From the NCBI GenBank assembly GCA_902791295.1, contig CADAVI010000033.1, positions 1 to 37,943 on the forward strand: a stretch of DNA of 37,943 nucleotides, in the 5' to 3' direction. The DNA is from an uncultured Bacteroidales bacterium. GTDB lineage: Bacteria; Bacteroidota; Bacteroidia; Bacteroidales; Bacteroidaceae. The notes under the pieces were generated by a model that saw only the letters and a program-made list of their open reading frames with translations, was not told the DNA's origin and did not search any database. The position numbers and the translations under genes are program-made. Shown here in pieces: positions 25,601 through 36,328 of the stretch. How positions within the stretch are numbered: the stretch's first letter is position 1; each line of letters opens with the position of its first letter.

Positions 25601-25608
25601 TATCTTTG
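25601..25608 (+). promoter_or_regulatory. Candidate -7 box of the peptide synthetase operon
   Basis: TATCTTTG matches the consensus. Start near 25615 gives a leader of about 32 bases to ATG 25647. The upstream 45 bases are T-rich, without a TTTG at the ideal 20-base distance, so strength may depend on an activator. Confidence 0.55.
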
Positions 25609-25646: not shown

Positions 25647-28600
25647 ATGTCCGTCATCTCCGCCCCCCTTTCCCAAACCCAAACCGGCATCTTCACCGAA
25701 TGTATGCAGCATCCCGACGGGAAACTTTATCTCATCGCCTTCCTATATAAACTGCATCCGGACACCGACCCCGGGCGCTTGGAGGACGCCCTCAGGCAGA
25801 CGGTAAAAGCCCATCCCTCCATCCTCATGCGCATGAGGGTAAACGAAGAGGGTGTACCCGAGCAATGGCTCGGCACGGAGGCTGTGCCCGACATAGCCAC
25901 CATCCGGGCGGACAGCATTGACGGGATTCGAAAGCATCTGGTGCAACCCATGCCAATGACAGAAGGGCCTCTCGCGCTTTTCCGCTTCATCCTGACGCCT
26001 GAATGCAACTACTTCCTGCTGCAGGTGCACCACGCCATCAGCGACGGCACTTCGCTGAACGTGTTCGTCCGCGACATGGACAGCGCTTATTTGGGCCGGG
26101 AACCGGAAGGGGAGGACCTGACGGCGCAGCAATACGCCCTTTGGGAACAGAAGGAGAGGAGCGGCGAAGCCTGGCTGCAGGACAAAGCCTGGAGCGAGGC
26201 GCACATCCTCAGCGACGAGGCGGAAACCGTGATTCCGGGCGACCTGAGCGGGGATGAGCCCGGAAGCCGCCGCTTCGAAATGGCGCTCAGCGTGAAGGAG
26301 CACGACGTCAGGCAGTTCTGCCAGACACGGGGCGCGAAAAAGAGCACCCTCTTCACTGTGGCCTACGCCCTGCTGATGTCCCGCTACACGGGCAACGACA
26401 ACGTGCTCTTCTCCACCATTTGGCACGGACGCGCCTCCGACCGTCTGGCCAGGACTTTCGGCATGTTTGTCCGCACGCTGCCCGCCGCATTCCGCCTGAG
26501 GGATGACATGAGCGTGGACGAACTGCTGGCCCAGGGCGCCGATGTGCTTAGCGAGGCACGCGCCCACACACTGTATTCCTTCAGCGACTTCTGCCACGAG
26601 CGCGGAGTGCAGCCCGCCACAATGTTCGTATGCCAGGGAAAACTCTTCAACGAGGTGCAGCTGGGCGGCCATTCCGCAAGTTGGGAAGACCTGGACTCCG
26701 CCCCGCTCTCCGAGCCCCTCGTGGCCGAATTGTGTGAAGAGGGAGAGGGCTATTCCATACGTTTTCAATACCACAGCCACCGCTACTCCGAAGCCTTCCT
26801 GCAAGGGCTGGCAGAGAGCTATTCCCAGCTCCTCGGGCAGATGATTCAGAAGGGGGGGCTGCTCCGCGACCTCAGCATCCTCTCCGCCGCGCAGGAAGAG
26901 GTGCTCGACCGCTTCAACGAGACGGACTCGCCCTTTGACGAGCGTCAGACCGTCGTCTCTGCCTTCAGACGCATCGCTGCGGAATATCCGCAAAAGACGG
27001 CGGTGGTGTTCCGCGAGCGGCGGCTGACCTACAGGGACGCGGACGACGTCAGTGACCGCCTGTCCGCCGTGATTACCGCCAGGGGGCTGGGACGGGAAGA
27101 CGTCGTAGCCGTGCTCATCCCACGATCGGAGTGGATGGCCACCGTCTCACTGGGCATTCTCAAGGCCGGATGCGCCTATCTGCCACTTGATGCTTCCTAT
27201 CCCAAAGAGCGCCTGGCCTTCATGCTTGAGGATGCCGGAGCCCGGTTGCTCATTGCAGACCGGTCGCTGGCCGCCCTCACGGACGACTGGCAGGGCGAAC
27301 GCCTGATGCTGGACGAACTTGAGGCGCTACCCGCGGCGACCGCGCTGCCCGAAGGGCCGCTGCCGGAAAGTCTCTTCACCCTGCTCTACACCAGCGGCAC
27401 CACCGGAGTGCCCAAGGGCTGCCAGGTGGAGCACCGTAACGTCACGGCCTTCTGCCACATGCACCGCCACTGCCACGAACTCACCGCCGACGCCCGCGTG
27501 GGCGCCTACGCCAGTTACGGTTTCGACGCCTCGGTGATGGAGCTTTTTGCCACCCTCACCACCGGCGCCGAATTGCACATCATCCCCGAAGAACTCCGTC
27601 TGGACCTGGCCGCGTTGCACGACTACATTGAGGCCAACGGGCTCACCCATATCTTCATGACCACCCAGGTGGCCTATCAGTTTGCCACCAACTTCACCGC
27701 CGCCTCACTCCGCCGCCTCATGACCGGCGGTGAAAAACTGCCCGCCCTGACGCCCCCCGAAGGCTACACGGTAGCCAATGGTTACGGACCTTCAGAAAGC
27801 ATCTGCTACGTGACCAACTTCAATGTGACGCAGCGCATGGAGGACATCCCCATCGGCAGCGCACAGCGCAACGTGAAATGCTACGTCGTGGACCGCCGGG
27901 GCCACCGCCAGCCCGCAGGAGCCGCCGGCGAACTGTGGATAGCCTCTCCCCAGGTGACACGCGGCTATCTGCACCAGCCGGAGCGCACGGCGGAGGCCTT
28001 CACGCCCAACCCCTTCTCTAAGCAAAGGCATTACGAACGCGTGTATCACACCGGCGACATCGTGGCAATGATGCCCGACGGCAACCTGCGCTTCGTGGGG
28101 CGGCGCGACGGACAGGTGAAAATCCGCGGCTTCCGCATCGAGATCAAGGAGGTGGAGGCCGTCATACGCCAATATCCCGGCATCAGCGACGTCACCGTGC
28201 AAGCTTTCGACTATGAGGGCGGAGGGAAATACATCGTCGCCTACGTCGTGAGCGACAGCACCATCGACACCGACGCACTCCACCGCTTCATCGCCGGAGA
28301 GAAACCGCCCTACATGGTGCCCGCCGTAACGATGCAGATCGGGCGCATCCCGCTCAACCAGAATCAGAAGGTGGACCGCAGGGCGCTGCCCCGCCCCGAG
28401 CACACGCCTGACGGGGAGAAGACGCCGACCGCCAACGTGCCGATGAACCTGCTGGAAGAGCAACTGTACAACATCGTGGAGAAACTTGTGGGACACGGAG
28501 ACTTCGACCTCACCACGCCGCTCAACTATGCCGGCGTCACCTCCATCATGGCCATCAAACTGGCCGTGCAACTGAACAGGCGCATCGGCGTGAAACTCAA

Positions 28601-31600
28601 CCCCAAATCGATAATGAAGGGCTGCAGCCTGCACGACATAGAAAACGAGATACTCCGGGCGCTGCTGGAGGGCGGACCCGGTGCCGCTCCCGCGGAGGGC
28701 GACACGACAGCCCGCAAGGCTGCAGGCGCGCCCTTCCCGCTGACCTACGCCCAGACCGGAGTCTATTTCGACTGCATGAAGCATCCGACCTCCATACGCT
28801 ACAACATCCCCACCCTCGTCAGCTTCCCCGAGAGTTTGGACAGCAACGCGCTGGCCGATGCCGTGAAGCGCGCCGTCGCCCTGCACCCCCAATTCTCTGT
28901 GCATTTCGGCAACGAGGGGACGGAGACCGTGCAGATTCCCGACCCCGGACTGGCGCCCGCCGTAAATCTGAAGGAGATGAGCGAGGAGGAACTGACACAG
29001 TACAGGCAAGACTTCGTGCGCCCTTTCAACCTCAAGCAGGGACCGCTCTACCGCATGGAAGTGGTGCGCACCGAGCAGAGGCTTTGCCTCCTGAGCGATA
29101 TGCACCATCTCATCGCCGACGGCATCTCCTTCGACCTCTTTCTACGCCAGGTTTGCACCCTGGTGGACGGTGGCAGCGCAGAACCCGAGGAAGTATCCTA
29201 CGCCGCCTTTGCCGAGGCCGAACGGGACGCCCGCAATCAGTCCGCCTTTGCCGAGGCACATGAGTTTTTCGATAAGCGGCTGAGCGGCATAGAGGGCGTC
29301 ACCGAACTGCCCTCCGATCTGTCCAATCCCACCGAGGGGGGCGAACGCAGGAGAGTGTCGGCCCCCCTGCACTTCGAACGCATCGAAGCCTTCTGCCGCA
29401 GCGAGGGCATCACACCGGCCCACCTCACCTTGGCCGCCGCCTTCTATGCCCTGTCACGCTTCTCGGGCAACGGACAATTGTGCATCACCACCATCAGCAA
29501 CGGACGTTCAGACCTGCGTCTTATGTCCACCGTGGGCATGTTTGTCAACACCCTGGCCCTGACGGCCCGCGTAGAGCATCAAAGCGTGCGCAGCTTCCTG
29601 CACGAGGTGCGCGACGACTTTGAGGCCACACTCGCTCACGAGCAATATCCCTTCGCCCGAATTGCCGCCGACTACGGCCTCACGGCCGACATCCTTTTTG
29701 CCTACCAGATGGGCGTCATAGAGCCCCACAGTTGCATGGGCCAACCCGTAACAGCGGAAAGCATGGAGGCCGCACAGCCCAAATTCCGTATCGCCCTGTA
29801 TATAGAAGAGGAAAACGGGCAGCCCTCGGTGTGCATTGACTACGACGACGGGCGCTACAGCCACTCCCTGATACACCATCTGGCTCGCGCGGTGAGCCTT
29901 GCTGCCGAAGCCTTTGCCAACGACCCTTCGCAGGCGCTCATGGATGTGGAGCTGACCGACGACGAACAACGGCAGGAGCTGAGTGGGTTCAATGCCACCG
30001 ACTCGCCCTACGACGAAAGTCAGACCATCGTGTCGCTTTTCCGCAAGCAGGCTGCCATGACACCCGACCGTCCGGCGGTGGTCTTCGGGGAACGCTGCCT
30101 AAGCTACCGTGAGACGGACGCTGTCTCGGAGCGCATCGCGCTCTATGTACACCGCTTGGGCCTCGGCCCCGAGGACGTGGTTTCCATCCTGATTCCGCGC
30201 TCGGAGTGGATGGCGACAGCCTCTCTGGGCGTGCTCAAGGCCGGCAGCGCCTATCAACCACTCGACCCCTCCTACCCCAAGGAGCGTCTGAATTTCATGA
30301 TGAAGGACGCCGGAGCCAAGCTGCTCATCGCCGACAGGGCGCTACGCCCCCTTGTGGATGAGTACGACGGCGAAGTGCTCTTCACAGACGCCATCAGCAC
30401 ATTGCCCGAAGCCACGGAGCCCCTACCCGACACGGCCACGCCGGAGAACCTTTTCATCCTGCTCTACACCAGCGGCTCCACCGGTGTGCCCAAGGGTTGC
30501 CAGTTGGAGCAACGCAACATCACGGCCTTCTGCCATTGGTACAGGCAACGCCTCTCGCTCACCCCCGATTGCCGTGTGGCCGCCTACGCAAGCTATGGCT
30601 TCGATGCCTGCATGATGGACCTCTGGCCGGCACTCACCTCCGGCGCTTGTGTGGACATCATCTCCGAAGACCTCCGGCTGAACCTTCCCGAACTGAACAC
30701 CTACTTCGAACGGCACGGCGTGACCCACTCGTTCATCACCACACAGGTGGGCTACCAGTTTGCCGTCAACGTGAACAACCATTCGCTCAGACACTTCCTC
30801 GTGGGCGGAGAAAAGCTGTCGTCGCTCAATCCTCCGACAAGCTATCTCATGCACAACGGCTACGGCCCCACGGAATGTACCGTATTCACCACCACCTACA
30901 CCCTGAGCCTGTGCCAGCAGGACATCCCCATCGGACGCCCCCTGGACAACCTTCGCCTCTACGTGGTCGATGCCCAAGGGCACCTGCTGCCTCTGGGCGC
31001 ACTGGGCGAACTGTGGGTGAGCGGCCCCCAGGTGGGGCGCGGCTATCTCAACCGCCCCGACCTCAACGACACCGTCTTCATCGCCAATCCCTTCGACAAC
31101 GACCCGCAACACAGCCGCATCTACCGCACAGGCGACATCGTGCGCTGGATGAGCGACGGCAACATCCAGTTTGTCGGACGCCGCGACGGACAGGTGAAGA
31201 TACGCGGTTTCCGCATTGAGCTCAAGGAGGTGGAGGCTGTCATCCGCCAGTTTCCCGGCATCGGAGATGTCACCGTGCAGGCCTTCGATCACGAGAGCGG
31301 CGGCAAGTTCATCGCTGCCTATATTGTAAGCAACGAGACTGTTGACACCGACGCCCTGCGCGATTTCATCGGACGCCACAAGCCTTCTTATATGGTTCCC
31401 GCTGCGCTGATGCAGATTGAGCGCATCCCGCTCAACCAAAACCAGAAGGTGAACCGCCGCGCCCTCCCGGCGCCGGTACTCCAGAGTGTGGTGAAGGACT
31501 ACACGGCGCCGGCCACGGAGACTGAGAAGATTTTCTGCGACATCTTCGCCGACGTGCTCGCCCTGGAGCGCGTGAGCGCCACCGACAACTTCTTCGACCT

Positions 31601-32939
31601 GGGCGGCACCTCGCTCATGGTGACACGCGTCATCATCGAAGCCGACCGCCACGGCCGCCCAATTGCCTACGGCGACCTCTTCTCCCACCCCACCCCGCGC
31701 CTGCTGGGGGCTTTCCTTTCTGATCTTAACAGCAAGGGGGAGACAGACGGAGGCAACGATGCGGAATACGACTACAGCGCCATCAACGACGTGCTCGCGA
31801 GCAACACGCTGGAGGCCTTCCGTCAAGGGACGCCACAGACACTGGGCCGCGTGCTGCTGACGGGCGCCACGGGCTACCTGGGCATCCACGTGCTGCACGA
31901 ACTCATCGGCAGGGACGATGTGCCCCACATCTTCTGCCTGGTGCGTGGCGAGAGCCGGGAGAAGGCTGAGAGTCGCCTGAAGAACCTGCTCTTCTACTAT
32001 TTCGGCCATAATTTCAAGACGCTCTTCGGCAGTCGCCTCAGCGTGGTGCCCGGCGATGTGACGCAGGAGATAGAGACGGACGAGACGGTGGACACCGTGA
32101 TTAACTGCGCCGCCGTGGTGAAACACTTCTCCAGCGGCACCGAGATTGAGGACGTCAACGTGCGCGGGGCGGCGCACTGCGTCCGCTTTTGCATGAGGAC
32201 GGGCGCCCGTCTCATCCACATATCCACCTACAGCACGGCCGGCCTCTCCGTGAACGGCACACCCGGCCCCGATGCGGTACTCACCGAGCAGCGCCTCTTC
32301 TACGGCCAGTCGCTGGACAACCGCTACGTGCACTCCAAGTTCGTCTCCGAGCGTCTCGTGCTGGAAGCCATTGCGCACAGCGGGCTCAATGCCAAGGTGA
32401 TGCGCGTGGGCAACCTGGCGCCCCGATCCACCGACGGCGAATTCCAAATCAACTTCCAAACCAATGCCGCCCTAGGCCGCGTGAGGGTGTATCGCGTGCT
32501 GGGCTGCTACCCCTACGGGCAAACCGACGACCCGATGGAGTTTTCGCCCATCAACGAAGTGGCCCACGCCATAGTCACCCTGGCCGTCACGCCCCGCGAG
32601 TGCTGCCTCTTTCATCCTTTCAACAACCACTCCGTCCACCTGGGCGACGTGCTCAACGAACTGCGCCTCATCGGCGAAGCCCCGCGCCAGGTGGAGGCCG
32701 CCGACTTCACCTCCGCCCTGGAGCAGAGCAAGCAGCAGCCCGACAAGGCACGCTTCCTGCAGAGCCTCCTGGCCTATCAGGATATGGCGCACGGAGGCGA
32801 GGTACGCCCCATCGCCACGCTGAACAGCTACACCACACAGGTACTCTACCGCTTGGGCTTCCGCTGGTCGCCCACGTCGTGGGACTATGTGGACCGCTTC
32901 CTCACCGCCCTCGACGGACTGGGATATTTTGAACAGTAA
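25647..32939 (+). CDS. Two-module nonribosomal peptide synthetase with terminal reductase (C-A-PCP-C-A-PCP-R)
   Basis: A 2430-residue enzyme. C1 has HHAISDG at residues 128-134. A1 has LLYTSGTTGVPKG at 579-591, NGYGPSES, YHTGD, VKIRGFRIE and the A10 lysine near 908. PCP1 has an odd core, GVTSI, with Ser966. C2 has HHLIADG at 1153-1159. A2 has LLYTSGSTGVPKG at 1605-1617 and Lys near 1934. PCP2 has LGGTSL with Ser1989. The terminal thioester reductase has the NADPH loop TGATGYLG at 2072-2079 and the YxxxK pair Tyr2227/Lys2231. Both A domains keep the Asp of FDAS/FDAC, so both should activate alpha-amino acids. An N-terminal C domain may acylate the first residue. The product should be a dipeptide aldehyde or alcohol. 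It is the first gene of a three-gene operon. No phosphopantetheinyl transferase or exporter is nearby. Confidence 0.95.
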   Translation: MSVISAPLSQTQTGIFTECMQHPDGKLYLIAFLYKLHPDTDPGRLEDALRQTVKAHPSILMRMRVNEEGVPEQWLGTEAVPDIATIRADSIDGIRKHLVQPMPMTEGPLALFRFILTPECNYFLLQVHHAISDGTSLNVFVRDMDSAYLGREPEGEDLTAQQYALWEQKERSGEAWLQDKAWSEAHILSDEAETVIPGDLSGDEPGSRRFEMALSVKEHDVRQFCQTRGAKKSTLFTVAYALLMSRYTGNDNVLFSTIWHGRASDRLARTFGMFVRTLPAAFRLRDDMSVDELLAQGADVLSEARAHTLYSFSDFCHERGVQPATMFVCQGKLFNEVQLGGHSASWEDLDSAPLSEPLVAELCEEGEGYSIRFQYHSHRYSEAFLQGLAESYSQLLGQMIQKGGLLRDLSILSAAQEEVLDRFNETDSPFDERQTVVSAFRRIAAEYPQKTAVVFRERRLTYRDADDVSDRLSAVITARGLGREDVVAVLIPRSEWMATVSLGILKAGCAYLPLDASYPKERLAFMLEDAGARLLIADRSLAALTDDWQGERLMLDELEALPAATALPEGPLPESLFTLLYTSGTTGVPKGCQVEHRNVTAFCHMHRHCHELTADARVGAYASYGFDASVMELFATLTTGAELHIIPEELRLDLAALHDYIEANGLTHIFMTTQVAYQFATNFTAASLRRLMTGGEKLPALTPPEGYTVANGYGPSESICYVTNFNVTQRMEDIPIGSAQRNVKCYVVDRRGHRQPAGAAGELWIASPQVTRGYLHQPERTAEAFTPNPFSKQRHYERVYHTGDIVAMMPDGNLRFVGRRDGQVKIRGFRIEIKEVEAVIRQYPGISDVTVQAFDYEGGGKYIVAYVVSDSTIDTDALHRFIAGEKPPYMVPAVTMQIGRIPLNQNQKVDRRALPRPEHTPDGEKTPTANVPMNLLEEQLYNIVEKLVGHGDFDLTTPLNYAGVTSIMAIKLAVQLNRRIGVKLNPKSIMKGCSLHDIENEILRALLEGGPGAAPAEGDTTARKAAGAPFPLTYAQTGVYFDCMKHPTSIRYNIPTLVSFPESLDSNALADAVKRAVALHPQFSVHFGNEGTETVQIPDPGLAPAVNLKEMSEEELTQYRQDFVRPFNLKQGPLYRMEVVRTEQRLCLLSDMHHLIADGISFDLFLRQVCTLVDGGSAEPEEVSYAAFAEAERDARNQSAFAEAHEFFDKRLSGIEGVTELPSDLSNPTEGGERRRVSAPLHFERIEAFCRSEGITPAHLTLAAAFYALSRFSGNGQLCITTISNGRSDLRLMSTVGMFVNTLALTARVEHQSVRSFLHEVRDDFEATLAHEQYPFARIAADYGLTADILFAYQMGVIEPHSCMGQPVTAESMEAAQPKFRIALYIEEENGQPSVCIDYDDGRYSHSLIHHLARAVSLAAEAFANDPSQALMDVELTDDEQRQELSGFNATDSPYDESQTIVSLFRKQAAMTPDRPAVVFGERCLSYRETDAVSERIALYVHRLGLGPEDVVSILIPRSEWMATASLGVLKAGSAYQPLDPSYPKERLNFMMKDAGAKLLIADRALRPLVDEYDGEVLFTDAISTLPEATEPLPDTATPENLFILLYTSGSTGVPKGCQLEQRNITAFCHWYRQRLSLTPDCRVAAYASYGFDACMMDLWPALTSGACVDIISEDLRLNLPELNTYFERHGVTHSFITTQVGYQFAVNVNNHSLRHFLVGGEKLSSLNPPTSYLMHNGYGPTECTVFTTTYTLSLCQQDIPIGRPLDNLRLYVVDAQGHLLPLGALGELWVSGPQVGRGYLNRPDLNDTVFIANPFDNDPQHSRIYRTGDIVRWMSDGNIQFVGRRDGQVKIRGFRIELKEVEAVIRQFPGIGDVTVQAFDHESGGKFIAAYIVSNETVDTDALRDFIGRHKPSYMVPAALMQIERIPLNQNQKVNRRALPAPVLQSVVKDYTAPATETEKIFCDIFADVLALERVSATDNFFDLGGTSLMVTRVIIEADRHGRPIAYGDLFSHPTPRLLGAFLSDLNSKGETDGGNDAEYDYSAINDVLASNTLEAFRQGTPQTLGRVLLTGATGYLGIHVLHELIGRDDVPHIFCLVRGESREKAESRLKNLLFYYFGHNFKTLFGSRLSVVPGDVTQEIETDETVDTVINCAAVVKHFSSGTEIEDVNVRGAAHCVRFCMRTGARLIHISTYSTAGLSVNGTPGPDAVLTEQRLFYGQSLDNRYVHSKFVSERLVLEAIAHSGLNAKVMRVGNLAPRSTDGEFQINFQTNAALGRVRVYRVLGCYPYGQTDDPMEFSPINEVAHAIVTLAVTPRECCLFHPFNNHSVHLGDVLNELRLIGEAPRQVEAADFTSALEQSKQQPDKARFLQSLLAYQDMAHGGEVRPIATLNSYTTQVLYRLGFRWSPTSWDYVDRFLTALDGLGYFEQ

Positions 32940-32940
32940 T

Positions 32941-34992
32941 ATGAAGAAAATCATACCACATCTGCCGGTCGGTGACAAACTGAGCGTCATCTTCATCATG
33001 GCGGTCATCCTCGCCGTATTGGTGACGCAGTATGCGGTGAACATCCGCAAGGACAAGGACGTGGCACGCGAGCGGATGACCCGTGAGATGGTCATCGTGG
33101 AGCAGCGCCTCATCTTCGAGCTGGCCGATGTCGAATATGCCGTGAGCGTGATGCGCCCCACGGCAGCGCACATGCTCCACCATCCCGACAGCCTGCAGGC
33201 ACTCACCCACCGAATGGTGAGGTTCATTTCCAACCTGCAGGCAGCGGGCATCGCCTTTGAGCCCTACTATTTCCCAGAACACGGCAAATGGTACGAGCCC
33301 AGCAGCTGGCGTAAGGGCAACATGATTTTCGATGAGCAGTCGGGCGGACCCCATCATGACTACTTCAGTATGGACTGGTATCGGGAGGGCCTCACCGCCG
33401 ACCCCGAGCACGGCCACTGGACCCATCCCTATCAGGACAACACTCAGGACGACAAATGGGTGACCACCTTCTCCATGCCGCTCTTCGATGAGAACGACTC
33501 GATCATCGGCGTGATAGCGACCGACGTGGCGCTTGATACACTCCGACGCGTGCTCAAGAAGTCCGAGCCATACAAGGGCAGCGTGTGCCGCCTGACCGAC
33601 CTTAACGGCCACGTCATTGCGAGTTCGGACAGCATCCTGCCCGACCCCGAGAAATGCTTCACGGACAGCATGAGAGTGGGCAACTACGACCTCATGGTGC
33701 ATCTTTCCTGCCCCAAAAAGGCCATCTACGGCAGCACGATACTGATGGAGCTGCTCACCCTCGCGCTGATGAGTGTCTGCATCGCGCTGCTCATCTGGAT
33801 TGGCCGGCACAGCATCCACAGCATCTCGGAGCTTCACGAAGCCCGCGAAAGCCAGCGGGAACTGGAGCGCGAGATGGAGGTGGCCCACAACATCCAGATG
33901 GGCATCCTGCGCACCGACTTTCCCCCTGGCGTGTCCGCCCATCTGCTGCCCATGCAGGAAGTGGGCGGCGACCTCTACGACTTCTGCGAGCGCGACGGCG
34001 CGCTCTGGTTCATCGTGGGCGACGTGTCGGGCAAAGGCGTGCCCGCCGCCATGATGATGGGCGCCACGGTGACGCTGTTCCGCAACGCCGTGCGCCGATG
34101 CGAGGCGCCGGCCGACATCGTGAGCGAAATCAACACCACGCTCTCCGACCACAACCCCAACCTGATGTTTGTCACCGCCTTTGTGGGGCGTCTCGACCTG
34201 CAACACGGACTGCTGACCTACTGCTGTGCGGGCCACAATCCGCCCGTGCTCAACGGCGAAGTCATGAACATCGCGCCCGACATCCCCATAGGTTTCCGTT
34301 CGGACTATTGCTACAGGCAGCACAACTGCCTCTTCCCCAAAGGTACCCGACTGGTGCTCTACACCGACGGCATCACCGAGGCGCGCAACCAGGAGCATGA
34401 GCAGATGGGGCTCGACCGCCTCCGCGACATCATCCGGTCGCAAGACAACGGGACGGCGGAGAAGACGGTCATGTGCGTCATTGAAGCCGTCTGCGACTTC
34501 TGCGAGGACTGCGACCAGACCGACGACATGGCCGTGATGTGCATCGTCAACGACCGGGCCCCTCAACAGCCCGCACTCACGCTCTCCAACACGCTTTCCG
34601 AGGTGACGCGCGCCAAGGAACTGCTGCGCGACTACTGCGATGCGCTCGCCCTCACGGACAAACAGTCGCGCGAGATGTGCCTGGCTCTGGAAGAGGCACT
34701 GGTCAACGTTGTCAACTACGCCTATCCCGAAGGCCACAGCGGAGTCATCCGTCTCGACATCATCGCCTCGGCGGACAACGGCAGACGCCGCCTCGTCCTG
34801 GTCATCAGCGACGAGGGCACCCCCTTCGACCCCACGGCGCAACCGGAGGTGAACGTCGGGGACGCCGTGAACGCACGCCAGGCGGGCGGACTGGGCATCC
34901 TCTTCTACAAGACGTTGATGGACGAAGTCAGCTACCGCCGCAGCGACGACGGTTGCAACATCCTGATCATGACTAAAACATTTGCAAACTGA
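32941..34992 (+). CDS. Membrane sensor with Cache-like domain, SpoIIE (PP2C) phosphatase and HATPase domain
   Basis: A 683-residue protein from ATG 32941, one base after the synthetase stop. Membrane helices at about 12-32 and 265-288 enclose a periplasmic Cache-like sensor (NMIFDEQSGGPHHDYFSMDWY, VTTFSMPLFDENDSIIGVIA). A short coiled coil (ARESQRELEREMEVAHNIQM) leads to the SpoIIE phosphatase with metal Asp in VGGDLYDF (Asp344), GDVSGKGVPAAMM (Asp361), LYTDGITEARN (Asp476) and TDDMAV (Asp528/529). The C-terminal RsbW-like HATPase has the N box EEALVNVVNYAY (Glu584/Asn589), DEGTPF (Asp624) and GGLGI. One chain thus carries both a phosphatase, which would activate a STAS protein, and a kinase-type ATPase, which would oppose it. 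The partner STAS protein follows 15 bases later. No sigma factor or separate anti-sigma factor is next to it. Confidence 0.92.
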   Translation: MKKIIPHLPVGDKLSVIFIMAVILAVLVTQYAVNIRKDKDVARERMTREMVIVEQRLIFELADVEYAVSVMRPTAAHMLHHPDSLQALTHRMVRFISNLQAAGIAFEPYYFPEHGKWYEPSSWRKGNMIFDEQSGGPHHDYFSMDWYREGLTADPEHGHWTHPYQDNTQDDKWVTTFSMPLFDENDSIIGVIATDVALDTLRRVLKKSEPYKGSVCRLTDLNGHVIASSDSILPDPEKCFTDSMRVGNYDLMVHLSCPKKAIYGSTILMELLTLALMSVCIALLIWIGRHSIHSISELHEARESQRELEREMEVAHNIQMGILRTDFPPGVSAHLLPMQEVGGDLYDFCERDGALWFIVGDVSGKGVPAAMMMGATVTLFRNAVRRCEAPADIVSEINTTLSDHNPNLMFVTAFVGRLDLQHGLLTYCCAGHNPPVLNGEVMNIAPDIPIGFRSDYCYRQHNCLFPKGTRLVLYTDGITEARNQEHEQMGLDRLRDIIRSQDNGTAEKTVMCVIEAVCDFCEDCDQTDDMAVMCIVNDRAPQQPALTLSNTLSEVTRAKELLRDYCDALALTDKQSREMCLALEEALVNVVNYAYPEGHSGVIRLDIIASADNGRRRLVLVISDEGTPFDPTAQPEVNVGDAVNARQAGGLGILFYKTLMDEVSYRRSDDGCNILIMTKTFAN

Positions 34993-35007
34993 AAAGAATT
35001 ATATGAT

Positions 35008-35310
35008 ATGAAAATCGACATCCGAACACAAGAGCATGGCGTGACGGTGGCGCTCGCCGGCGAGTTCGACACCATAGCCACCACCGAGATGAGTGACCGT
35101 CTGAACGAAATCCTCGAACTGACCGACCGCCCCGTCACCGTGGATTGCAGCGAACTGGAGTATATCAGTTCCTCGGGCCTGCGCTTCTTCATGCAGCTCA
35201 AGCGCGGCAGCGAGCGGCGCGGCGGCAGTGTGAGCCTCGTCGGCCTCAACGAGGACGTGAAGGAAATCTTCCGCCTGAGCGGCTTCTGCAACCTCTTCGA
35301 CATCCAGTAA
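35008..35310 (+). CDS. STAS domain anti-sigma factor antagonist
   Basis: A 100-residue single STAS domain. The core VTVALAGEFDTIATTEM, PVTVDCSELEYISSSGLRFF and SLVGLNEDVKEIFRLSGFCNLF is typical of SpoIIAA/RsbV-type proteins. The phosphorylation site lies in ISSSG, with Ser55 the best candidate by alignment to Ser58 of SpoIIAA. The Asp usually just before that serine is replaced by Ser54. It should be dephosphorylated by the SpoIIE enzyme encoded immediately upstream and phosphorylated by a HATPase kinase, probably the same protein. Its downstream target is not in the window. It is the last gene of the synthetase operon; the hairpin beyond it (35316-35351) lacks T on this strand. Confidence 0.93.
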   Translation: MKIDIRTQEHGVTVALAGEFDTIATTEMSDRLNEILELTDRPVTVDCSELEYISSSGLRFFMQLKRGSERRGGSVSLVGLNEDVKEIFRLSGFCNLFDIQ

Positions 35311-35380: not shown

Positions 35381-36328
35381 TCAAAGAGGATAGTCCTCGA
35401 AAGCATAGAGCACGGTGGATAGATAGCGCTCGCCCGTGTCGGGCAGGAGCACAACGACCTTTTTCCCCTTGTTTTCCGGACGCCTGGCGATCTCGGCGGC
35501 AGCAAAAGCCGCTGCACCGGCCGAAATGCCCACCAGCAGACCTTCACTCTTAGCCAGCTGGCGTCCTGTGCGGATGGCGTCGTCATTTTCCACATCAAAC
35601 ACCTCGTCCACCACGTCGGCATTGTAGGTGGCGGGCACGAAGCCGGCACCGATACCCTGTATCTTGTGGGGGCCGCTCTGCCCGCCGTTGAGCACGGGTG
35701 AGGATTTGGGCTCCACGGCAATCACCTTTACGCCGGGCTTCTTCTCCTTGAGATATTTACCCACACCACTGACGGTGCCGCCGGTGCCTACGCCGGCCAC
35801 AAAGATGTCTACCTCGCCGCCTGTCTGCTCCCAGATTTCGGGGCCGGTGGTGGCGTAATGACGTGCGGGATTGGCAGCGTTCTCAAACTGCTGCAGGATG
35901 ATGCTGCCCGGGATGCTCTCCCTGAGCTCCTTGGCCGCACGGATGGCGCCGGGCATACCGTCCTTGCCGGAAGTCAGACGCACCTCTGCGCCATAGGCCT
36001 TCACCAGGTTGCGACGCTCCACGCTCATCGTCTCGGGCATCGTGAGAATCAGTTTGTAACCTTTCACGGCCGACACCAGAGCCAGACCCACGCCGGTGTT
36101 GCCGCTGGTGGGCTCGATGATGGTGGCACCGGGCTTGAGGAGCCCCTTCTTCTCGGCGTCCTCAATCATGGACAGGGCGATGCGGTCTTTCACGCTGCCG
36201 CCGGGATTGAAATACTCTACCTTCGCAATGACGGGCGTCTCAAGACCCTTCTCCTGTGAATACTTGCCAAGCTCCAGCAGCGGCGTGTTGCCGACGAGTT
36301 CGGTCAGTTTTTTTGCAATCTTAGCCAT
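35381..36328 (-). CDS. cysK: Cysteine synthase A (O-acetylserine sulfhydrylase)
   Basis: A 315-residue PLP enzyme of the usual length. It makes cysteine and acetate from O-acetylserine and sulfide. Visible signatures are the start [17 protein letters not shown], the PLP lysine in [10 protein letters not shown] (about residue 47), the substrate loop [12 protein letters not shown], the phosphate-binding loop [10 protein letters not shown], and [11 protein letters not shown] near the C-terminus. It lies 48 bases downstream of metY in the same direction. The gap is AT-rich with no obvious -7 box, so co-transcription from the metY promoter is likely. Confidence 0.97.

Follow-up and report, generated by a model that had tools for sequence, protein, structure and literature searches.

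What is a predicted serine-phosphorylation switch doing in the same operon as a peptide synthetase? The question arises on contig CADAVI010000033.1 of an uncultured Bacteroidales bacterium of the family Bacteroidaceae (GCA_902791295.1; a 2.26-Mb assembly of 145 contigs, 85% complete, here genome G000), of which we analysed positions 1 to 37,943, hereafter the window. On its + strand the genes for a nonribosomal peptide synthetase (NRPS), a membrane sensor carrying both a phosphatase and a kinase domain, and a single-domain STAS protein lie head to tail, spaced by 1 and 15 bases. Here, we show that linkage between such synthetases and the switch is real and widespread in the family, the window holding a compact version, describe as a new observation MATE exporters fused to an RsbW-like kinase domain beside NRPS genes, and weigh what the switch may control. 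The three genes are:

25647..32939, + strand: NRPS, 2430 aa, with condensation (C), adenylation (A), peptidyl carrier protein (PCP) and reductase (R) domains in the order C-A-PCP-C-A-PCP-R (open reading frame (ORF) translation, Pfam)
32941..34992, + strand: membrane sensor, 683 aa, built as helix, periplasmic dCache domain, helix, PP2C (SpoIIE) phosphatase and RsbW-like HATPase kinase (Pfam, AlphaFold model, PDB matches)
35008..35310, + strand: single-domain STAS protein, 100 aa, with predicted phosphorylation at Ser55 (Pfam, alignment)

A synthetase and a predicted partner-switching module in one operon

The tandem arrangement and the domain order of the synthetase had been read from the bare sequence in the original prediction, and ORF calls, Pfam and intact motifs agree with it. 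The stop and start codons at the first junction read TAATATG, placing the sensor ATG at 32941; the mechanically called ORF opens earlier, at 32887, within the NRPS gene. The synthetase divides as follows:

25662..26906, + strand: N-terminal C domain, HHAISDG (domain border and motif scan)
26964..28406, + strand: A domain 1, code DAMMMGGCY (motif scan)
28428..28664, + strand: carrier domain 1, AGVTSI (motif scan)
28737..29981, + strand: C domain 2, HHLIADG (motif scan)
30039..31484, + strand: A domain 2, code DAMILGGVF (motif scan)
31497..31733, + strand: carrier domain 2, LGGTSL (motif read by eye in the translation)
31827..32921, + strand: terminal thioester reductase domain, TGATGYLG and YVHSK (Pfam, motif scan)

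Pfam returns two Condensation, two AMP-binding and two PP-binding domains and one NAD_binding_4 domain, and the core motifs of the C, A, PCP and R domains are intact, among them YTSGTTG and YTSGSTG in the A domains and HISTYS in the R domain. The two modules of the enzyme are followed by an intact NAD(P)-dependent R domain, the pattern of reductive-release (dipeptide-aldehyde) synthetases. Its nearest NCBIfam model is AusA (NF047350), which it matches at 1308 bits, below the equivalog cut-off of 2500, so it does not classify as an AusA equivalog. Compared with the domain layout of AusA, the N-terminal C domain is extra, which suggests an acylated start; judged from its position, it is probably an acylating starter domain. 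Both A domains probably select hydrophobic residues, a weak assignment from codes that give no finer identity and were read at what we take to be the code positions. Two-electron release would yield, as the likeliest product, an N-acylated dipeptide aldehyde built from two hydrophobic residues.

Such N-acyl dipeptide aldehydes are known from gut NRPS clusters, which share with AusA and the window a pair of modules and reductive release, and gut bacterial dipeptide aldehydes are protease inhibitors acting on host cells (PMC8518294). The window differs from these clusters in its extra C domain, its sub-cut-off AusA score and its linked partner switch, which the available part of PMC8518294 does not mention. 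Of the 5,346 NRPS clusters tallied in an earlier survey of rumen genomes, 934 belong to Bacteroidaceae (PMC8241843).

The sensor and its partner carry the parts of an RsbU/RsbW/RsbV-type module. Three regions of the sensor can be delimited:

32953..33675, + strand: dCache sensing region, in a hidden Markov model (HMM) extent that includes the first membrane helix (Pfam, AlphaFold model, PDB fold matches)
33931..34545, + strand: PP2C/SpoIIE phosphatase domain (Pfam, alignment)
34564..34989, + strand: HATPase_c_2 (anti-sigma-type serine kinase) domain (Pfam, alignment)

The sensing region matches MCP-like_PDC_1 at 72.0 bits (cut-off 27) and dCache_1 at 37.7 bits only (cut-off 45), and SpoIIE and HATPase_c_2 score 154.5 and 94.5 bits. 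Both catalytic domains appear complete, with the metal-binding PP2C motifs GDVSGKG, TDG and TDD and the HATPase boxes EEALVN (N), DEGTPF (G1) and GGLG (G2) intact and the catalytic residues conserved across aligned relatives. In the AlphaFold model (mean pLDDT 80.2, pTM 0.43) two long helices flank the sensing domain, and by eye they carry hydrophobic stretches resembling membrane spans. In both sequence and fold, the sensor's best PDB match is the RsbU-RsbW portion of Rv1364c (3ke6); the PP2C domain of SiaA (6k4e) is among the top fold matches (TMt 0.83), and matches of the dCache region include amino-acid, amine and CqsR receptors. What we take to be the dCache amino-acid motif is partly kept by eye, and we gave it no weight. 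Pfam finds no REC domain of the kind present in SypE, and a dCache-type input stands in its place.

The STAS protein (Pfam STAS, 62.6 bits) completes the module with a phosphorylatable serine. Ser55, presumably the counterpart of the RsbV/SpoIIAA phosphorylation site, is kept in 44/44 aligned NRPS-linked STAS proteins and in 19/19 others. The window's genome holds a further STAS gene, beside a RelA/SpoT-domain gene (L164:1852-2888; loci are numbered with L, genomes with G).

Recurrent linkage of synthetase and switch

We looked for the same neighbourhood in a family sample of 399 genomes, 78 of which had an NRPS match. Sixty regions were fetched from 57 of these, the other 21 being the window's own genome, which is counted, and 20 left out. 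Domain maps used HMMs trained on proteins of the window and on their relatives, with STAS counted on all ORFs, as antisense ORFs otherwise mask many STAS genes, the window's included. A locus was called full-flank when each flank measured at least 2.5 kb, and linked when SpoIIE or STAS lay within 5 kb of the NRPS gene. Among the 28 full-flank multi-module loci, window included, SpoIIE was within that distance in 23/28 and STAS in 24/28, and neither occurred at the eight full-flank loci whose NRPS is a single module with an R domain (0/8). For STAS this difference between multi- and single-module loci gives a one-sided Fisher value of about 1.6e-5, calculated by hand and not corrected for kinship. 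A ninth full-flank single-module locus, L127, is linked and was set aside from the eight, its NRPS running over several frames; the single-module NRPSs of L082 and L099, in tandem with a multi-module NRPS in linked loci, were counted with it.

Loci outside these two sets give a similar picture. Where contig ends cut the locus, 9/16 multi-module and 4/7 single-module cases were linked (L141 has no long NRPS ORF), and six of eight named loci with full flanks were linked; the named loci L066-L081 are outside the count, and L072, L073 and L075, whose contigs equal in length those of three counted loci, look like duplicates of them. Counted by genome, 24/28 NRPS-positive and 19/93 NRPS-negative members of the first 121 genomes encode the sensor family (Fisher 5e-10, from a hand-made table and not corrected for kinship). 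With 10 SpoIIE copies in 3 Mb, chance alone would place one near about 6% of loci, and the census rules out chance co-location. The original prediction, which tied the synthetase to its own signalling circuit, had staked this on whether homologous synthetases usually lack the two downstream genes; the counts went in its favour, and conservation of the neighbourhood supports the tie well.

Linkage was seen in 12 genus codes of the family and reaches beyond it. Beyond the family, the order sample gave eight genomes with NRPS matches at 1e-150, of which three are linked, in three further families (L179, L180, L181), making four families in all. At a threshold of 1e-200, the phylum sample of 345 genomes added one genome with an NRPS match. 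Named relatives of the NRPS come mostly from Bacteroidales or Bacteroidia metagenome-assembled genomes (MAGs) from ruminants, along with Phocaeicola barnesiae, two Atopobiaceae MAGs and one Clostridia MAG. The related NRPSs of L074 and L076, which sit on contigs binned as Atopobiaceae (Actinomycetota) and have no switch, may reflect transfer or a binning error.

Transporter fusions and the possible output of the switch

A possible output came from the exporters near these synthetases. Ten MATE exporters carry a C-terminal HATPase_c_2 domain above the Pfam cut-off (those of L107 and L180, and 8/8 tested in a second set); the L108 fusion falls just under the cut-off, and L160 has a degenerate extension only. 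Such fusions adjoin the NRPS gene in L107, L180, L210, L211 and L213, the last with a longer, different NRPS, and similar ones occur in L206-L208 and L212. The window's genome encodes one too (C51:14622-16352, which is L205:8611-10362, - strand; HATPase_c_2 at 2.7e-14), 36% identical to the L180 fusion over nearly its full length.

Fusions were found in 11/301 genomes of the family sample, with the G106 and G263 copies in pieces or with a stop, and 10/11 of these genomes are NRPS-positive, compared with 61/301 overall (p 6e-7, not corrected for kinship). The 61 were counted by hand with the sample taken as G000-G300, and NRPS-positive here means a match at 1e-60, including NRPSs without a matching R domain (e.g. 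G281). In the order sample, a fusion match at 1e-45 occurred in G661 and G000 only (2/344).

The sensor family also meets a transporter away from synthetases. A CitMHS-type symporter accompanies sensor and STAS in 9/20 regions around other sensors (Pfam was run on two), in the order sensor-symporter-STAS in L147, L148, L149, L150, L152, L153, L155 and L156 and sensor-STAS-symporter in L143. The symporter is of CitMHS/TrkA_C type, about 595 aa long, and no NRPS was mapped in those nine stretches. Another sensor-STAS pair, in a genome without an NRPS match (G082), lies beside a STAS domain fused to an APH/choline-kinase-like domain (L142:7207-8400).

Taken together, the fusions near NRPS genes, the fusion in the window's genome and the symporter-linked modules point to a transporter output. 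We therefore favour, tentatively and at a little under even confidence, a dedicated partner switch that uses HATPase-bearing partners, and not a sigma factor, to gate production or export of the acyl-dipeptide aldehyde. In this scheme the dCache domain would read a small molecule, the putative ligand, in the periplasm; the PP2C domain would take phosphate off Ser55 of the STAS protein and the HATPase domain would put it on, if both have the predicted activities; and the STAS protein would switch partner by phosphorylation state. The output would be local, with the STAS protein docking on pathway-associated RsbW-like HATPase domains, above all on the putative docking site at the C-terminus of MATE exporters such as that at G000:C51. 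Synthesis or export of the predicted product would thereby follow an outside signal, in a direction of effect that we can only infer.

A broader version, possible though held with some reserve, is that in Bacteroidales partner switching has come to act on membrane transport in place of sigma factors: the STAS protein would dock on MATE-borne RsbW-like domains and, in a sister class, act on CitMHS symporters, gating in NRPS clusters the export and perhaps the synthesis of peptide aldehydes, while the exporter-borne kinase might report transport state back to the STAS protein. If the output is indeed transport rather than transcription, partner switching would gain a new class of target, one open to testing in a tractable Bacteroides host. 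A conserved switch of this predicted kind, borne on the cluster, also offers a concrete handle, in the form of a sensor, a predicted phospho-serine and an exporter-borne partner domain.

Several observations weigh against this proposal. Four of the 28 full-flank loci (L083, L102, L112, L113) have neither partner, nor have the named full-flank loci L070 and L074; outside the family, L184 and L185, whose NRPSs are 28% identical, are not linked (L172, L182 and L183 are cut by contig ends). The window operon itself has no MATE, barrel or PPTase gene, and the C51 fusion is unlinked to it, at a contig end. Other system-bearing genomes, e.g. G038 and G152, gave no fusion match with at most four candidates scored per genome, and two of the linked genomes of other families, G651 and G751, were not among the matches listed at 1e-45, their presence in that sample being assumed. 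Where relatives have a local MATE it is mostly unfused, so the fusion cannot be a general docking site. Of 12 aligned fused HATPase domains, 11 retain the N-box and G1 box and none an intact GGLG box; with GGLG lost throughout, these domains may not be active kinases and may bind the STAS protein without strong kinase activity. Finally, the primary sigma factor may be a target, as has been reported in Chlamydia (PMC8256260).

This last point bears on the alternative that survives best, which we regard as doubtful: an anti-sigma-type step, acting on the primary or second sigma-70 factor or another regulator, would set transcription of the NRPS operon in an Rsb-like manner. Sigma control is the canonical STAS output in the same review (PMC8256260). 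The window's genome has two Sigma70_r3 proteins, the second RpoS/RpoD-like and 288 aa long, and a stand-alone RsbW-like protein at C23. This second sigma factor, the one of the two that was classified, reaches 99.3 bits, far under the SigB/F/G cut-off of 234.35, and is also under the RpoS and RpoD cut-offs. Among 15 system-bearing genomes at least 90% complete, drawn from 33 genomes of which G112 has a linked STAS and no linked sensor, six have two Sigma70_r3 proteins, but eight have only one and one has none. With the HATPase domain on MATE exporters and the symporter-linked modules pointing to membrane transport instead, a sigma output appears less likely.

A second alternative differs from the proposed transporter-gating switch in its input and is compatible with it. 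The dCache domain might bind the cluster's own exported peptide, or a pyrazinone form of it, for density or feedback sensing. A periplasmic sensor, synthetase and export genes are co-encoded in relatives, the dCache region matches amino-acid, amine and CqsR receptors, among others, and pyrazinone autoinducers are known elsewhere (PMC11480411), but the same sensor family stands beside the CitMHS symporter in loci without an NRPS, which suggests that inputs may be nutrients, and we consider this circuit improbable. Least probable is that sensor and STAS form a general stress module with no function for the NRPS: such modules do occur away from NRPS genes (19 sampled other sensors) and four of the 28 full-flank loci lack both partners, but linkage recurs over about ten gene orders, 12 genus codes and three further families, well above the chance level. 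An anti-phage defence system was likewise considered and rejected, PADLOC giving 0 matches for the three window proteins.

Known switches, gene orders and flanking signals

Rv1364c of Mycobacterium tuberculosis (3ke6) resembles the sensor in joining a PP2C phosphatase and an RsbW-like kinase in one chain; the window system differs in its transmembrane dCache input, separately encoded STAS protein and NRPS in the operon. Rv1364c also has PAS and STAS domains, SypE of Vibrio fischeri is not known to have a membrane sensor, and the indigoidine synthase of Vogesella indigofera is an NRPS. In SypE-SypA, too, a single protein combines kinase and PP2C activity towards a single-domain STAS protein, and the STAS protein is the component further downstream (PMC10120452, PMC12826045), but SypE has a REC domain and the output is a biofilm, not a natural product (PMC12826045). 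SiaABC(D) of Pseudomonas aeruginosa likewise links a PP2C/kinase pair acting on a STAS-like protein to a local enzyme; there, in contrast, the kinase SiaB is separate, the target is the diguanylate cyclase SiaD and the phosphosite is a threonine (PMC7647112). STAS/PP2C/kinase systems with non-sigma outputs are thus already known (PMC10120452, PMC7647112). In TciK-TciR of V. indigofera, an RsbW-like domain affects indigoidine output, but TciR is a REC-RsbW response regulator found in a transposon screen, its sensor is a histidine kinase and the genome reportedly has no RsbV homologue (PMC12826045). A literature search, with preprints and most subscription papers outside it, gave among the matches listed no Bacteroidales NRPS cluster with a SpoIIE/STAS switch, no MATE-HATPase fusion and no description of the trigger of such NRPS clusters in Bacteroidales.

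The exact three-gene layout described in the original prediction is not the usual one. About ten gene orders occur across relatives, with the linkage mostly persisting; the commonest is sensor-STAS-barrel-NRPS-MATE, with or without a ligase or phosphopantetheinyl transferase (PPTase) gene (14 loci, e.g. L088, L110, L117), and the window's own order is in a minority. The others are:

Sensor-STAS-NRPS: L082, L090, L092, L095, L118 (the L118 sensor without HATPase)
NRPS-sensor-STAS: window, L122, L125, L127, L180; L119 with MATE and two other genes between
NRPS-STAS-sensor-PPTase: L179
Sensor-NRPS-STAS: L086
STAS-NRPS-PPTase, sensor convergent: L066
Divergent arrangement: L069, L080
STAS-MATE-NRPS, Cache-SpoIIE gene on the opposite strand: L107, L108
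STAS-MATE-NRPS: L210
STAS-NRPS-Cache-SpoIIE: L116, L123
STAS-NRPS-MATE-PPTase, no sensor: L072/L089, P. barnesiae

Extra genes in the fuller relatives encode an outer-membrane barrel (Alginate_exp), a MATE exporter, an AusB-like PPTase and a PaaK/F390-like ligase (Pfam and NCBIfam on single examples). The AusB-like PPTase adjoins the NRPS gene in several relatives. Domain maps recognised no PPTase beside the window operon; its genome has one ACPS-domain protein, at C20, which reaches 47.4 bits with the AusB model, under the cut-off of 225. In many barrel/MATE-type operons (L088, L098-L100, L103-L106, L109-L111, L117 and others) the second A-domain code is identical, DAQGRGCVA, and the first varies. 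In Phocaeicola barnesiae DSM 18169 an internal stop splits the NRPS (L072:9992-17248, the same as L089); a PreA-like gene precedes the upstream STAS gene, and no sensor lies within about 10 kb on each side.

In a quick tree the window's sensor fell apart from the main clade of NRPS-linked sensors, which had prompted the idea that the switch was replaced from an unrelated lineage. That tree has seven label changes, at least three of them forced by starred branches, which is weak given its long branches, and the window's NRPS falls within a clade (99*) shared with six loci whose sensors belong to the main clade. Approximately unbiased (AU) tests did not reject grouping with the main sensor clade for the window (p 0.342), L086 (0.428) or L066 (0.188), so the replacement claim was dropped; rapid evolution of the window's sensor may be explanation enough.

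A candidate control signal precedes the operon:

25601..25608, + strand: -7-like promoter box TATCTTTG, 38 bases upstream of the NRPS start codon (Bacteroidota-type motif)

The box rests on TAnnTTTG, which we take to be the Bacteroidota -7 consensus, and no partnering -33 box was seen by eye. On the + strand TANNTTTG has no further copy after this box until 37778. A scan with totals about as in shuffled sequence (3 vs 2.0 and 7 vs 7.1 shuffled) gave no terminator-like site at either operon junction. At such totals, the E. coli-type promoter-like match that it lists just inside the sensor gene (32972-32999, +) decides nothing. The operon is bordered upstream by a divergent AlkZ-related gene and downstream by a convergent gene, 35381-36328, that reads by eye as cysteine synthase-like.

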